Assembly: GCA_943355045.1 (NCBI GenBank)
Contig: CALRDY010000002.1
Span: forward strand, 1 to 18,127
DNA from: Candidatus Nomurabacteria bacterium
Lineage (GTDB): Bacteria; Patescibacteriota; Minisyncoccia; Phycocordibacterales; Phycocordibacteraceae
Length of the DNA stretch: 18,127 nucleotides
Direction of reading: 5' to 3'
Shown: piece by piece, positions 5,213 to 10,982 of the stretch
Layout: each line of letters opens with the position of its first letter
Position numbering within the stretch: the stretch's first letter is position 1
The notes under the pieces: model-generated
Database searches by the model: none
Told to the model about the DNA's origin: nothing
What the model saw: only the letters and a program-made list of their open reading frames with translations
Translations under genes and position numbers: made by a program

Positions 5213-5677
5213 ATGCGTTTTTTTTCTACCTCACTCGTTGCTGTTGCATTTGTCATAAGTGCTGCGGGTATTGCGCATGCTCAACTCGAAAATCCTCCTC
5301 CAGGGAGCACTCCGGGCGGATTTGCCTTGCCGGGGCCTGGTGGCAATACGGGCTTTACTTTGCCGATGCCGGGAGGAAATACCGGCTCTAATGGTTCCAA
5401 CGAAAAACTCATCAATCCGCTCAAGGGGGGGGGCAATCTTCAGTCATTTCTTCTCAATATACTGGATTTCATCATAAATATCGGCTCCATCATCGTCATC
5501 CTGATGCTGGTATTTGTCGGTTTCAAATTCGTTACCGCACAGGGCGAGCCGGGCAAGATCAGCGAGGCGCGCGACATGCTCCTCTGGACCGTCATCGGCG
5601 CGCTTGTCCTGCTCGGATCGAAAGCGATAGCCATGGGCATCCAGGCGACCGTGCAGGCGCTCTCATCCGGCGGCTGA
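5213..5677 (+). CDS. VirB2/TrbC-like pilin-type membrane protein (array member 1)
   Basis: This is a 154-residue protein. Residues 1-23 are a signal peptide ending AHA, with cleavage likely before QLENPP. Residues 25-70 are a Pro/Gly/Asn-rich extracellular linker (PGPGGNTG, MPGGNTGSNG). Two membrane helices follow, LLNILDFIINIGSIIVILMLVFVGFKFV and LLWTVIGALVLLGSKAIAMGIQATV, separated by a short charged loop (TAQGEPGKISEARDM). Signal peptide plus two helices around a short cytoplasmic loop is the layout of VirB2/TrbC pilins of type IV secretion and conjugation systems. It begins 1 nt after the solute-binding protein and is followed 1 nt later by member 2, so translation is probably coupled. 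It is the most pilin-like and the most divergent of the six. Confidence 0.8.
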   Translation: MRFFSTSLVAVAFVISAAGIAHAQLENPPPGSTPGGFALPGPGGNTGFTLPMPGGNTGSNGSNEKLINPLKGGGNLQSFLLNILDFIINIGSIIVILMLVFVGFKFVTAQGEPGKISEARDMLLWTVIGALVLLGSKAIAMGIQATVQALSSGG

Positions 5678-5678
5678 T

Positions 5679-5960
5679 ATGAACCTCTCTGGCGGCACCA
5701 GTCTCAAGAATTTTATCGGCAGCGGATCCGATGGACTCATCGGCGCTATCAATACTATCGTCATACCGGTCATCACGGCTCTTGCCTTTGGCGTTTTCAT
5801 ATGGGGCGTCGTGAGTTATTTTTTCCTTCATGGAGAAGACGAGGGGAAGCGCGCGGAAGGACGTCAGTTCATCTTCTGGGGCATTCTCGGCATGGTTGTT
5901 CTCTTCTCGGTCTGGGGATTCGTGAACCTGCTGTTGTCCACGCTCGGCATCGCGCCTTAA
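5679..5960 (+). CDS. Small two-helix membrane protein (array member 2)
   Basis: This is a 93-residue protein with no cleavable signal peptide. Helix 1 is INTIVIPVITALAFGVFIWGVVSYFFL, followed by the loop HGEDEGKRAEGRQF, then helix 2 IFWGILGMVVLFSVWGFVNLLL. The loop and helix 2 match member 6 (GDEGKREDGKQAILWGLIGM) and more loosely members 3-5, so these are paralogues. The layout is like VirB2/TrbC without the signal peptide. Spacing of 1 nt from member 1 implies coupled translation. The function is not known; an integral inner-membrane part of a pilus-like or secretion-like assembly is a guess from the company it keeps. Confidence 0.8.
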   Translation: MNLSGGTSLKNFIGSGSDGLIGAINTIVIPVITALAFGVFIWGVVSYFFLHGEDEGKRAEGRQFIFWGILGMVVLFSVWGFVNLLLSTLGIAP

Positions 5961-5987
5961 TGAAGTAATGTGTCATACTTACCGCAT

Positions 5988-6509
5988 ATGAAATCAACCG
6001 TTCGCACTGCCGCACTGCTCGTGATGCTTCTCGTGCCCGTGCTCGCATTCGCACAATCAACGCAAACGCAGGTGCAGATGGTGTCTCCTCCCAATATGCC
6101 GTATACGGGTTCCTACGATTTCAAAGGTATCCAGCAGTTTTCTGGCGGCAACTTCATGATGCCAGGTATGATGGGTATGGGACTGCCCGGGCTCGGCGGC
6201 GGAACGGTTGGGTTTGGAGTAGTCAGTATTGCTAGTACCATCATCTATCTCATCAATAGCGTGCTGGTGCCGCTGCTCTTCGCAGTTTCTTTCATCGTGT
6301 TCCTGTACGGCGTCGCCAAAGCCTACATCTTGTCTCCGGGCGATGAGGAAGCGGTCAAGAGCGGCCACAAGATACTCCTCTGGGGCCTCATCGGCTTTGC
6401 AGTCATGGTGTCGGTCTGGGGTCTCGTAAATGTCGTCGTGGCCACTTTTGGTCTCGCTTCATCATCCGGGTCGGCCTATCCGACAGCGTTCGGGTCATTC
6501 TCAAGATAG
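5988..6509 (+). CDS. Signal-peptide two-helix membrane protein (array member 3)
   Basis: From the ATG at 5988 the protein has 173 residues. A signal peptide runs to about residue 23 (VPVLAFAQS), followed by a low-complexity Met/Gly/Pro stretch (GGNFMMPGMMGMGLPGLGGG). Helix 1 is IYLINSVLVPLLFAVSFIVFLYGV, the loop is ILSPGDEEAVKSGHK, and helix 2 is ILLWGLIGFAVMVSVWGLVNVV. Helix 2 is almost the same as in member 5. An upstream in-frame ATG at 5970 would put charged residues before the signal peptide and is less likely. TGTCATACT, 8 nt before the ATG, looks like an extended -10, so the mRNA may be nearly leaderless. Member 4 follows 11 nt after the stop. Confidence 0.8.
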   Translation: MKSTVRTAALLVMLLVPVLAFAQSTQTQVQMVSPPNMPYTGSYDFKGIQQFSGGNFMMPGMMGMGLPGLGGGTVGFGVVSIASTIIYLINSVLVPLLFAVSFIVFLYGVAKAYILSPGDEEAVKSGHKILLWGLIGFAVMVSVWGLVNVVVATFGLASSSGSAYPTAFGSFSR

Positions 6510-6520
6510 TTTGAAACCAT

Positions 6521-6811
6521 ATGAAATTAGACGCTCTCCAAGTGTATTCCAACAGCATCATCAACATCATTTATTTTCTCCTTGTCCCGGCGGTAATCGC
6601 CATGGCGTTCATTACGTTTCTCTGGGGTGTCTATACGTATTTTATTCTCGGCGCGGACAATGAAACCGCGCGCGAGACAGGGAAGCAATTCATCCTCTGG
6701 GGCATCATTGGTTTCGCAGTCATCATCTCTTTCTGGGGGCTCGTGTATATGGCCAGTATGACGCTCGGTCTTTTCCCGGGGAGTGCTCCGTTACAATCGC
6801 CGAGGATCTAG
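6521..6811 (+). CDS. Small two-helix membrane protein (array member 4)
   Basis: This is a 96-residue protein without a signal peptide. Helix 1 is IIYFLLVPAVIAMAFITFLWGVYTYFIL, the loop is GADNETARETGKQF, helix 2 is ILWGIIGFAVIISFWGLVYMASM, and a short tail follows. It shares the loop pattern (G-acidic-x-x-G-K) and the helix-2 signature LWGxIGFxVxxSxWGLV with members 3 and 5. It lies 11 nt after member 3 and is probably in the same transcript. No Shine-Dalgarno site is visible. Function unknown; VirB2/TrbC-like in topology. Confidence 0.8.
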   Translation: MKLDALQVYSNSIINIIYFLLVPAVIAMAFITFLWGVYTYFILGADNETARETGKQFILWGIIGFAVIISFWGLVYMASMTLGLFPGSAPLQSPRI

Positions 6812-6861
6812 CCCTGTCCTGGAGGGTCAATATTCTATCCACACGAAGCGAGCAGACACGA

Positions 6862-6889
6862 TTGACTCTACTCATACGGACGTTACAAT
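6862..6889 (+). promoter_or_regulatory. Promoter of array members 5 and 6
   Basis: TTGACT (6862-6867), a 16-bp spacer and TACAAT (6884-6889) differ from the sigma-70 consensus at one base in each box. The predicted start, near 6896, leaves a leader of about 20 nt before the ATG at 6916. It sits in the only sizeable gap (104 bp) of the array, so members 5-6 can be expressed separately. Confidence 0.7.
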
Positions 6890-6915
6890 TACCACGTTAT
6901 CCATTTACCTATATT

Positions 6916-7284
6916 ATGAAAAAAGCCCTCGCCCTCACTTCAGGAATCCTCGCCGCGTTCGCCGTACCGCTCGTCTCTTCCGCCGCCATCAGCAATCTCT
7001 CGGATGTCGGTTCGTTCGTCATCAATACCATCAACAATGTCTTCGTCCCGGTCCTCTTCGCGGTAGCATTTATCGTCTTCGTCTGGGGCGCATTCGATAC
7101 GTTCATCTTGGGAGCGAATTCCGAGGATGTGAAGGAAAAAGGGAAAAACCTCATGCTCTGGGGTCTTATCGGCTTCTTCGTGATGGTCTCCGTGTGGGGC
7201 TTGGTAAACATCCTTACGGGTACGGTCAGCTTCGGTACTTCGACGCAGTCGGCTCTTCCAGCAGCGAAAACGGTCGGTCAATAG
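6916..7284 (+). CDS. Signal-peptide two-helix membrane protein (array member 5)
   Basis: From the ATG at 6916 the protein has 122 residues. Residues 1-23 are a signal peptide (MKKALALTSGILAAFAVPLV, ending SSAA). Helix 1 is INTINNVFVPVLFAVAFIVFVWGA, the loop is ILGANSEDVKEKGKN, and helix 2 is LMLWGLIGFFVMVSVWGLVNIL. It is the closest relative of member 3 but lacks the Met/Gly-rich linker. The strong promoter at 6862-6889 supports the start at 6916 rather than the upstream in-frame ATG at 6862, which lies in the -35 box. Member 6 follows 4 nt after the stop. Confidence 0.82.
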   Translation: MKKALALTSGILAAFAVPLVSSAAISNLSDVGSFVINTINNVFVPVLFAVAFIVFVWGAFDTFILGANSEDVKEKGKNLMLWGLIGFFVMVSVWGLVNILTGTVSFGTSTQSALPAAKTVGQ

Positions 7285-7288
7285 ATAG

Positions 7289-7567
7289 ATGAACGTACTC
7301 AATAAGTTCCTCGGGAGCGTCGTCGTGGAGATCATCAATCCGATCATCCTGCTCCTCTCCGCCGGCGCATTCGTCGTATTCCTCTGGGGCGTGTTCGAGT
7401 TTGTCGCGCATGCAGGGGACGAGGGAAAGCGCGAGGATGGGAAGCAGGCCATCCTCTGGGGTCTTATCGGGATGGCAATCATCTTCGGCGCCTACGGCAT
7501 AATCAATCTCGCGCTCGGCACCTTCGGCCTCGACAAGCTGGTTCCGGGGAAGTTCAGCGGATCATAG
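7289..7567 (+). CDS. Small two-helix membrane protein (array member 6)
   Basis: This is a 92-residue protein without a signal peptide. Helix 1 is INPIILLLSAGAFVVFLWGVFEFV, the loop is AHAGDEGKREDGKQ, helix 2 is AILWGLIGMAIIFGAYGIINLAL, and a short polar tail follows. It is most like member 2, with the same GDEGKR/EDEGKR loop. It is the last gene of the array and is followed 16 nt later by a strong terminator. The array thus alternates signal-peptide and signal-less members (1/2, 3/4, 5/6), which suggests duplication of a gene pair. Confidence 0.82.
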   Translation: MNVLNKFLGSVVVEIINPIILLLSAGAFVVFLWGVFEFVAHAGDEGKREDGKQAILWGLIGMAIIFGAYGIINLALGTFGLDKLVPGKFSGS

Positions 7568-9496: not shown

Positions 9497-9579
9497 GCTG
9501 GGGTGGCGAAATTGGTAGACGCATCAGCCTTAGGAGCTGACGGGGCAACCCATTGGAGGTTCGAGTCCTCTCCCCAGCA
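9497..9579 (+). tRNA. tRNA-Leu(TAG)
   Basis: An 83-nt class II tRNA: acceptor GCTGGGG/CCCCAGC, anticodon stem TCAGC/GCTGA with loop CTTAGGA (anticodon TAG), long variable arm GGGCAACCC, T-arm GGAGG-TTCGAGT-CCTCT, discriminator A. CCA is not encoded (CAG follows position 73). The 3' end is the target of the adjacent 160-bp element. Confidence 0.96.
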
Positions 9580-9580
9580 C

Positions 9581-9740
9581 AGACATGAGCATAGCGAGTG
9601 CGGTGCTGGGAGCGTGACGCCTGCGCGTCACGCGTGAGAGGACTCGAAGGCCTTTGCGTTATTTTCGAGCCAAGCCGCTTGGCAAGAAAATCGCAAAGGT
9701 GTACTGCGCCGGTACGGCGTGAGATTCCTCTCCCCAGCAC
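9581..9740 (+). mobile_element. tRNA-3'-end palindromic element, copy 1 (tRNA-Leu), 160 bp
   Basis: After a 22-nt spacer comes an inverted copy of tRNA-Leu nucleotides 74-54: GTGCTGGG (9603-9610) and GAGAGGACTCGAA (9636-9648). It is split by a 25-nt insert (9611-9635) holding the hairpin GCGTGACGC-CTGC-GCGTCACGC. Then comes a long hairpin (9651-9699: CCTTTGCG, ATTTTC, GCCAAG / CTTGGC, GAAAAT, CGCAAAGG), a small CGCCG-GTA-CGGCG hairpin, and finally TCCTCTCCCCAGCAC (9726-9740), an exact 15-nt direct copy of tRNA nucleotides 60-74 (9566-9580). There is no ORF of note. The design is repeated at tRNA-Cys. The mobile nature is inference; a structured RNA or terminator-like unit is the alternative. 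Confidence 0.7.
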
Positions 9741-9747
9741 CGATTAG

Positions 9748-10578
9748 TTAGCGAAGAACCGCCTTTTCAACCCGCAGCGCTTTCCCGAACAGCCTGCTTC
9801 CCAAATACTTGAAAGTATCAATCTGGCCGGTCGAATAAAAGCGGATGCTCGATTGTCTGCCGAGCGTTCTTTCGAGGTCACTGTGTTTTTTCAAATATTT
9901 TTCTAATTTCTTCGGCACCACCTTTGCTTCGGATATGATCTTGATGTCCGATCCGATGATGTTGCGGATGCTTTTTTCCAAAATTCCGTAATGCGTGCAG
10001 CCGAGGATGAGGGTGTCTATATTCCTGCGGAGTAAGGGATGCAGATATTTTTTTAGCACCGCGCGCGTCTCTTGAGTGTCCTGCTTTCCCGCCTCCACAA
10101 GCGGGACCAGAAGCGGGCACGCTTTCTGAAATACATGCACGCTCGGATCGAGTTTTGTCAGTTCCCGGACGAATGCGTTTGATGCAACGGTAGCGGTCGT
10201 AGCGATAACGCCTATTCTCCCGCTGTCGGTTCCCCGTATGGCTTCTTCCGCCGCGGGAATGAGTACGCCGAGTATTTTTTTCTTCGTACCGTGTTTCTTC
10301 GCATATTCCTGCTGAATCTTGCGGAGTGCTTCGCTCGAGGCGGTGTTGCAGGCAGTAATCACGATTCCGCATTCATGCTGAAAAAGAAATCGCACCGCCT
10401 GTCTTGTGAACGCATGTATCATTTCCTGCGACCGATGCCCGTACGGAGCGCGGGCGGTGTCGCCGAGATACACATAGTTGTACTGCGGGAGTTTCTTCAC
10501 GATAGAGCGCGCTATATCAAGCCCGCCAAATCCGGAATCGAAAATCCCTATGTTCAAGCGTCTCTTTTTCTTTACCAT
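9748..10578 (-). CDS. murI: Glutamate racemase
   Basis: This is a 276-residue protein, normal for the family. It interconverts L- and D-glutamate to supply D-Glu for peptidoglycan in the cytoplasm. Diagnostic motifs are GIFDSGFGGLD (residues 11-21), YLGDTARAPYG (37-47), ITACNTAS (74-81, catalytic Cys77) and LGCTHY (192-197, catalytic Cys194). It is cofactor-independent, with two catalytic cysteines. The ATG at 10578 is only 4 nt after the encoded CCA of tRNA-Leu(TAA), so the mRNA must be made as a tRNA-mRNA precursor or start inside the tRNA. No Shine-Dalgarno site can fit. A TTG at codon 8 is a weaker alternative start. A murein precursor gene fits a CPR cell that keeps a wall. Confidence 0.96.
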   Translation of the reverse strand: MVKKKRRLNIGIFDSGFGGLDIARSIVKKLPQYNYVYLGDTARAPYGHRSQEMIHAFTRQAVRFLFQHECGIVITACNTASSEALRKIQQEYAKKHGTKKKILGVLIPAAEEAIRGTDSGRIGVIATTATVASNAFVRELTKLDPSVHVFQKACPLLVPLVEAGKQDTQETRAVLKKYLHPLLRRNIDTLILGCTHYGILEKSIRNIIGSDIKIISEAKVVPKKLEKYLKKHSDLERTLGRQSSIRFYSTGQIDTFKYLGSRLFGKALRVEKAVLR

Positions 10579-10582
10579 GTGC

Positions 10583-10675
10583 TGGTGCCGAGGGTGGGAA
10601 TCGAACCCACACGAAGGTTTTTAGGCCGTCTCAGGATTTTAAGTCCTGTGCGTCTACCAATTCCGCCACCTCGGC
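10583..10675 (-). tRNA. tRNA-Leu(TAA), with encoded CCA
   Basis: A class II tRNA on the minus strand: acceptor GCCGAGG/CCTCGGC, anticodon stem CAGGA/TCCTG with loop CTTAAAA (anticodon TAA), long variable arm, T-arm GTGGG-TTCGATT-CCCAC, discriminator A. CCA is encoded at 10585-10583, unlike the other three tRNAs here. murI starts 4 nt later. Confidence 0.96.
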
Positions 10676-10689
10676 AAATTTCTATGCTT

Positions 10690-10718
10690 ACTCTAGCAGT
10701 CTATCAAGGAATTGATAA
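10690..10718 (-). promoter_or_regulatory. Promoter of tRNA-Leu(TAA)-murI
   Basis: On the minus strand TTATCA (10718-10713), 17 bp, then TAGAGT (10695-10690) with an upstream TG (extended -10, TGCTAGAGT). The predicted start, near 10683, gives a 5' leader of about 7 nt on the tRNA. The same TGCTAGA- pattern is seen at the cysteine desulfurase promoter. Confidence 0.5.
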
Positions 10719-10745
10719 TCGTATTTCTGTTACCTTTTATTTATT

Positions 10746-10909
10746 GAGGCCCGGGCGGGATTGGTCACGGATAATTCTCTCGCCGTCGCTCAAGAATTTC
10801 CTCGACCCCGCCTCACGGCTCGGCCTGCTAGCCGAGCATCGCTCCGGCTTTCAATTCCCGATGGATTGCGCGCAGGCGCAATCCGCCCGGGCCTCTTTCG
10901 AGGACTCCA
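10746..10909 (-). mobile_element. tRNA-3'-end palindromic element, copy 2 (tRNA-Cys), 164 bp
   Basis: Read on the minus strand from the tRNA-Cys 3' end: a 14-nt spacer (10909-10896); an inverted copy of tRNA nucleotides 74-54, GAGGCCCGGGC (10895-10885) and GGGAATTGAA (10859-10850, one mismatch), split by a 25-nt insert (10884-10860) with the hairpin GGATTGCGC-CTGC-GCGCAATCC; an 89-nt structured spacer containing GCTCGGC/GCCGAGC; and TCCCGCCCGGGCCTC (10760-10746), an exact 15-nt direct copy of tRNA nucleotides 60-74 (10924-10910). Layout, insert length, hairpin arm length and CTGC loop equal those of the tRNA-Leu element, but the sequence differs. There is no supportable ORF. Confidence 0.7.
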
Positions 10910-10910
10910 G

Positions 10911-10982
10911 AGGCCCGGGCGGGAATCGAACCCGCGCATCGCGCTTTTGCAGAGCGCTGTGTTACCGCTTCACCACCGGGCC
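10911..10982 (-). tRNA. tRNA-Cys(GCA)
   Basis: A 72-nt cloverleaf on the minus strand: acceptor GGCCCGG/CCGGGCC, D-arm GTG/CAC, anticodon stem GCGCT/AGCGC with loop CTGCAAA (anticodon GCA), T-arm GCGGG-TTCGATT-CCCGC, discriminator T as is typical for tRNA-Cys. CCA is not encoded. The 164-bp element abuts its 3' end. Confidence 0.96.

Follow-up and report, generated by a model that had tools for sequence, protein, structure and literature searches.

What are the short units that follow two tRNA genes of this locus, and how did each come to carry an inverted and a direct copy of the tRNA it stands behind? The window, i.e. the whole stretch of 18 127 nucleotides analysed here, was taken from a 452-kb draft genome. 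Its tRNA genes were located with ARAGORN (tRNA-Lys, tRNA-Leu(TAG), tRNA-Leu(TAA) and tRNA-Cys). The first-pass annotation had described two units of 160 and 164 bp with a matching plan and split inverted copies, and this description was confirmed by a repeat search and by inspection of the sequence (Table 1). Direct copies were paired at 9563-9583/9723-9743 behind tRNA-Leu (spacing 160, 90% over 21 nt) and at 10746-10760/10910-10924 behind tRNA-Cys (spacing 164, 15/15). Inverted arms were paired at 9560-9572/9636-9648 (Leu) and 10883-10896/10909-10922 (Cys). When the stretches were folded with the tRNA included and compared with shuffles, z values of -7.3 (Leu) and -6.1 (Cys) were obtained. 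The architecture is common to both units and the cores are of different types, class A in the Leu unit and class B in the Cys unit. The first 3 nt of the latter core are also the end of the inverted copy. Elsewhere in the window, about six small, similar-looking membrane proteins are encoded in tandem (5213-7567); two tested proteins of this run matched Pfam T4SS_pilin above the cut-off. A protein with a PaaX_M Cas2-like domain is encoded at 1529-2254.

Table 1. Features of the units behind tRNA-Leu(TAG) and tRNA-Cys(GCA), in window coordinates.
Feature	Position	Strand	Basis
tRNA-Leu(TAG), intact host gene	9497..9580	+	ARAGORN
Putative T-loop break point of tRNA-Leu(TAG)	between 9562 and 9563	+	direct repeat begins 9563
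tRNA-Leu acceptor end, inverted copy (first half of split copy)	9603..9610	+	sequence, fold
Leu-unit side hairpin P1a, 9-bp stem, loop CTGC at 9621-9624	9612..9633	+	sequence; family feature
tRNA-Leu T-arm, inverted copy (second half of split copy)	9636..9648	+	13/13
Class A core of Leu unit: hairpin CCTTTGCG..CGCAAAGG, GTAC, second hairpin	9649..9724	+	sequence; class A relatives
tRNA-Leu 3' end, direct copy (tRNA nt 60 onward)	9726..9740	+	repeat search
tRNA-Cys(GCA), intact host gene	10910..10982	-	ARAGORN
tRNA-Cys acceptor end, inverted copy	10883..10896	-	14/14
Cys-unit side hairpin P1a, 9-bp stem, loop CTGC	10863..10884	-	sequence; family feature
tRNA-Cys T-arm, inverted copy, one T-loop mismatch	10850..10860	-	sequence, fold
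Class B core of Cys unit, hairpins P2 + P3	10763..10852	-	model R1, 104.9 bits
tRNA-Cys 3' end, direct copy	10746..10760	-	15/15

The tRNA 3' flanks of the draft genome were scanned for an inverted exact run of at least 11 nt together with a direct exact run of at least 13 nt, within 200 nt 3' of the tRNA. Both copies were carried by five of the 33 tRNAs (Leu(TAG), Cys, Gly, Arg and Pro), the Gly, Arg and Pro units lying on contigs other than that of the window. Two controls were run. Among 1056 mismatched tail/flank pairs, the inverted copy was found in 7, the direct copy in 3 and both in 1; among 6600 shuffled flanks, these numbers were 1, 0 and 0. The Cys, Gly and Pro units belong to class B and the Leu and Arg units to class A. 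A search of tRNA 3' flanks, which the first-pass annotation had proposed, thus returned further units in this genome and in related ones. The pattern GCCTGCGC was discarded as a search tool in the same genome, where it gave 40 matches against 47 for the reversed control. Two tRNAs of genome G000 (C8:7474-7545, locus L024, and C18:5978-6048, locus L022) have a partial inverted copy of the T-arm and no direct copy was found behind them; these are perhaps decayed units.

The class B core was followed through the order. With the core region of the Gly unit (109 nt) as query, 41 of the order's 98 genomes gave matches, the window's own among them, and a same-strand tRNA lay upstream in 28 of the 30 loci fetched (exceptions: L040 and L060). 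A covariance model (R1), which had also been suggested at the outset, was built from 28 aligned class B cores. The consensus consists of two hairpins, P2 and P3, and strong compensatory change was found, with double changes in 25 of the 28 predicted pairs; tandem G-A mismatches in the P2/P3 consensus are our own reading. R1 matched 70 of the 98 genomes, own included (36/58 in the same genus and 34/40 from the order's other families); the highest copy number was 38, in G083. In a phylum-level sample of 286 genomes, R1 matched 36. In an alignment of 76 distinct rows of later matches, fitted to R1 and including at least 8 training loci fetched again among its 83 rows, 96.3% of the cells were paired, against 32-46% for slid and 67% for shuffled controls, and two-sided changes were found in 27 of 28 pairs. 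An exact core pattern was present in 37 contigs of the GTDB collection; a tRNA within 150 nt upstream was on the same strand in 25/37 and on the opposite strand in none. The contig titles include Kaiserbacteria, Nomurabacteria, Yanofskybacteria, Uhrbacteria, Falkowbacteria and Adlerbacteria. One contig titled as an Elusimicrobia MAG, its bin assignment taken as given, carries a complete unit behind tRNA-Arg.

Class A, seen in the Leu and Arg units, is made of the hairpins CCTTGCG..CGCAAGG and TCC-TGTAA-GGA, joined by GTAC. With a 103-nt Arg query, matches were obtained in 43 of the 98 genomes, short partial matches counted, and a tRNA within 150 nt upstream was on the same strand in 19 of 30 fetched loci and on the opposite strand in 0. 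The motif CGTGA, noted before both direct copies of the window, corresponds in the Cys family to GTGACC, the conserved end of the core, but did not prove general in the Leu family, in which many other cores finish ..GCGTAATCGCGG or similar. Against Rfam 15, tRNA was the only family to reach the gathering score in the window and in 7 loci with cores; when the units were searched at a permissive threshold, again only tRNA reached that score and the other matches were weak. No exact match to one core pattern was found among IMG/VR viral contigs, so there is no sign of phage carriage at exact-pattern stringency.

The position of the cores relative to tRNAs was strongly biased. Within 137 distinct class B cores (from 170 hits, repeats dropped; the sample favours high-scoring matches), 100 lay at most 100 nt 3' of a same-strand tRNA and 2 after an opposite-strand one. 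A tRNA at most 100 nt downstream of the core was on the same strand in 15 cases and on the opposite strand in 4; some tRNAs, judged by eye, were missed by ARAGORN. Counted per tRNA, a same-strand core was present within 200 nt 3' in 23/41 (G083), 8/45 (G038) and 11/42 (G018). Opposite-strand cores 3' of a tRNA numbered 0, 0 and 3 in these genomes, and same-strand cores 5' of a tRNA 7, 2 and 3. Copies at the ends of protein genes were located at T-arm-like stretches, in the EF-P gene (L159 and L208) and in the topoisomerase I gene (L060), the topA junction being GGCAC/GAAAAC (a slash marks the junction here and below). Behind the tmRNA of L227 (G272), a unit was seen whose arms match each other and not the tmRNA.

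The same-strand bias, the strong covariation of the core and the good preservation of the inverted copy would suit an immobile structured RNA that acts in cis at the 3' ends of tRNAs, in processing, in regulation or as a decoy, with arms that co-evolve with the tRNA. The tRNA-Gly unit also speaks for this: between G000 and G005, a change of the T-loop from TTC to TCC is mirrored in the inverted copy. We regard such a cis-acting RNA as unlikely. No unit lies behind 28 of the 33 tRNAs of the draft genome, class B is absent from 22 of 58 genomes of the same genus, and terminator-like hairpins (judged by eye) often stand between the tRNA and the core, i.e. before the latter. The copies at protein-gene ends argue in the same direction, as do the filled and empty sites, the near-identical cores with different arms and the nested copies described below.

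Filled and empty sites were compared in syntenic loci around murI within the genus. When tRNA-Leu(TAG) of the window was aligned with that of G033, a 164-bp insertion was found; the Leu direct copy runs on into the flank seen at this empty site, the sequence after it being the flank directly 3' of the tRNA in G033. At tRNA-Lys it was G033 that carried an insertion relative to the window, of 90 bp and at GGCGC/AC, with a downstream flank matching over about 35 nt. Over seven syntenic loci, the Leu(TAG) site was filled in the window genome only. The tRNA-Cys site was filled in four loci (window genome, G017, G039, G004) and empty in three (G033, G044, G056); these calls were made from the syntenic loci, and the pairwise Cys alignment did not resolve the flank. 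Empty sites in relatives, which the first-pass annotation had named as something to look for, were therefore seen as presence/absence at tRNA-Leu(TAG) and tRNA-Lys. Loss through recombination between the direct repeats could be another source of empty sites.

Near-identical cores at different sites were observed in G083. The core behind tRNA-Gly is 92% identical to the tRNA-Glu core and to one tRNA-Leu core, and 94% identical to a copy without a tRNA before it. The direct copies of these Gly, Glu and Leu units fit their own tRNA over 18, 17 and 18 nt; the inverted arms fit it over 6, 7 and 10 nt only. Another pair of tRNA-Leu units has cores that are 98% alike and inverted arms that differ, each arm matching its own tRNA (over 16 and 17 nt); a third unit (L099), with a core 99% alike, carries the arm of the first. 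Near-identical cores thus stand behind different tRNAs with copies that fit the adjoining gene, over 6-10 nt for some inverted arms. The mobility of the units is well supported, and the proposed tRNA-targeting family is supported beyond the window by units in related genomes, the covariance model and presence/absence at syntenic tRNAs.

Some loci of this family have a more complex make-up. Five G083 copies (L108, L109, L111, L112 and L115) consist of a hairpin CTCAATTGC-loop-GCAATTGAG and a core with no tRNA directly before them; by reading, two of the five are nested in other copies, between P2 and P3. Two cores lie within 200 nt behind tRNA-Arg in L215, in tandem, and three pattern matches lie within 430 nt in L287; tandem units are expected from recombination between direct copies. 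In two genomes (loci L150 and L060), the apical loop of P3 holds a third small structured insert (CTAAATTT..AAATTGGAAG..GTGGTGC) at C/GA; it may belong to a further element family that follows the same target rule.

For the analysis of arms, 180 distinct cores were kept from 253 hits after repeats, locus ends and N stretches had been dropped. A direct repeat score of at least 12 was reached by 60/180, against 1/180 with exchanged partners; no clear direct copy was seen for the other 120. Inverted copies scored at least 10 in 109/180 (10 with exchanged partners) and at least 12 in 56 (0 exchanged). Direct repeats were 12-63 nt long, and 20 nt or longer in 20/60. In 4/60 the matching place was more than 150 nt off, perhaps in a neighbouring unit. 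Both copies were present in 46 cores, and in 34 of these the inverted copy had its start exactly 3 nt ahead of the direct one. This offset corresponds to tRNA nt 54 for the inverted and 57 for the direct copy, with the junction TTC/RA. Insertion at a T-loop leaves the tRNA with a complete end, supplied by the insert, and with a direct copy on the far side of the insert. The unit's inverted copy of the target extends 3 nt beyond the junction. The inverted arms of the 180 cores were of T-loop type (110), of acceptor-end type (22) or other (21), and fewer than 9 of 12 nt were matched in 27. Acceptor-end junctions read NGC/AC or CCC/GC. The junctions thus have the general form NNC/R and lie either in the T-loop or in the acceptor end, just ahead of the discriminator base. 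Odd T-loops were copied in the inverted arm in L047 (TCC), L049 and L148 (both GTC), and not in L061 (TCC).

A restored tRNA 3' end with a direct repeat would also be left by a tyrosine-recombinase element that attaches at tRNA 3' ends, and the units could be relics or miniatures of such elements. They are, however, too short for an integrase gene at 160 and 164 bp; their direct repeats spread over the whole range given above, and the junction falls at two places within tRNAs. To our knowledge, no att design contains a target-matching inverted copy or three hairpins. We judge this origin highly improbable.

The side hairpin that splits the inverted copy was counted in a regex-defined set of 114 T-loop-type units. 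A 9+4+9 hairpin was present at one fixed place in 53/114, against 15/342 shifted control windows. The loop CTGC, given in the first-pass annotation as shared by both window units, is a feature of the family (36/53 side hairpins) but is not universal. The stems vary: 458 of 468 positions were paired in these units, which had been chosen for pairing, against 270 on average with exchanged arms. Positions that differ from the tRNA were fewer in the inverted copy (170/1836), a set chosen by match, than in the direct copy (378/1377), and the better preservation of the former could reflect selection for pairing. Transitions in the inverted copy kept a wobble pair in 33 cases and lost one in 24. The inverted copy may have a pairing function; the wobble numbers show no clear pairing selection, which speaks against a cis-acting RNA.

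With a probability of roughly 70%, we consider each unit to be a non-autonomous mobile element, some 90-180 bp long, whose arms are rewritten from its target. Between the two explanations first offered for the window, an element moved in trans is accordingly favoured; an RNA that would imitate the tRNA end or pair with it is the less probable of the two. Several observations weigh against the favoured reading: the screen for a mobilising enzyme described below gave no clear candidate, many cores show no clear direct copy (120/180) or a poor inverted match (27/180), the inverted arms of the G083 Gly, Glu and Leu units fit over short lengths, the inverted copy is better preserved than the direct one, and the arms of L099, L227 and L061 behave irregularly. 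We infer the mobilising enzyme, the RNA or DNA nature of the element and the copying step as follows. The target would be entered at NNC/R, in the T-loop (TTC/RA) or in the acceptor end. There an enzyme provided in trans would make a cut with a 3-nt 3' overhang. The right-hand end would be capped by the core, in the form of RNA or of single-stranded DNA. The left 3' end would be extended by copying of the target, fold back and copy the target again in reverse, and repair would fix both copies. Through this fold-back copying and repair, every insertion would give the unit new arms made from its target.

Candidate genes for the mobilising enzyme were counted in 98 genomes, with Y1 transposases and reverse transcriptases (RVT_1) tried, and no clear mover emerged. 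The Y1 count was associated with copy number only weakly (rho 0.27, p 0.008, 98 genomes, relatedness uncontrolled), and Y1 was not retained as the mover. A Y1 hit was lacking in 20 of 70 element-bearing genomes and in 3 of 14 genomes with at least 10 copies; G083 has one hit and the window's genome three. RVT_1 was present in 41 of the 98 genomes, once in the window's own. Its count did not follow copy number (rho -0.04) and it was absent from 9 of the 14 high-copy genomes, and reverse transcriptase was likewise set aside. A self-splicing intron had been considered because the 5' half of the tRNA can also pair with the direct copy. This reading, which was compared with the commonly known core motifs of group I and group II introns, was given up: several loci show a decayed direct copy next to a first tRNA copy that is still whole.

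The small hairpin form of the units, with the weakly positive Y1 association, would suit REP/REPIN-type elements moved by REP-associated (Y1) transposases. No fixed tag was found inside 28 class B cores, in which GTAG (9/28) and CGTC (3/28) are scattered. The consensus, when inspected, shows P2 and P3 as two different hairpins and not as one palindrome in inverted order, and target copying is not described in the available parts of PMC3733652 and PMC3116915. We hold a REP/REPIN nature to be improbable.

If non-autonomous elements of the kind proposed here are at work, the family would represent a mobile element whose target complementarity arises anew at each site. It would show how a very small genome can bear elements behind more than half of its tRNAs (23/41 in G083) with the tRNAs kept. 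It would also provide a marker family and a covariance model for a poorly known phylum. In the open-access literature, with subscription papers and preprints mostly outside the search, no title or abstract describing the family was found.

Several known systems share part of this picture. Integrative elements with a tyrosine recombinase target the tRNA 3' end, restore the tRNA and leave a direct repeat. The units are like them in these three features, the repeat being clear in 60/180, and differ by their size of 90-180 bp without room for an integrase, their inverted arm and their strong strand preference. Retrons have a hairpin RNA enclosed by complementary arms, but the copy number of the units does not follow that of reverse transcriptases: no RVT_1 hit was obtained in G083, with its 38 copies. 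The double-hairpin elements of fungal mitochondria are short, multi-hairpin, patchy and intergenic. No other element known to us has an inverted copy of its host tRNA's end. Short hairpin repeats of sponge mitochondria are patchy and intergenic, and in one sponge many lie beside tRNA genes (PMC2800124). They resemble the units in being short and multi-hairpin; they belong to another lineage, and locus-matched copies are not described in the available part of that source. REPs are extragenic hairpins in many copies that carry a GTAG or CGTC tag, and movement by a Y1 transposase has been proposed for them (PMC3733652, PMC3116915). REPs and REPINs with RAYT transposases are similarly tiny, non-autonomous, extragenic and numerous, but copies matching the adjoining gene are not among the features given in the available parts of these two papers. 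Of every class compared, whether REPINs, integrase elements, retrons or Rfam families, the units lack at least one tested hallmark. The way of life of the units resembles that of known miniature mobile elements, and what sets the family apart is the match between its inverted arm and its site. It is possible, and we put it forward tentatively, that it forms a new class of selfish elements, which would take the near-universal tRNA T-loop as address, rewrite their arms by fold-back copying and so turn every copy into a guide for its own site, and which have spread through much of the Patescibacteria and, judged from one contig, into Elusimicrobiota.
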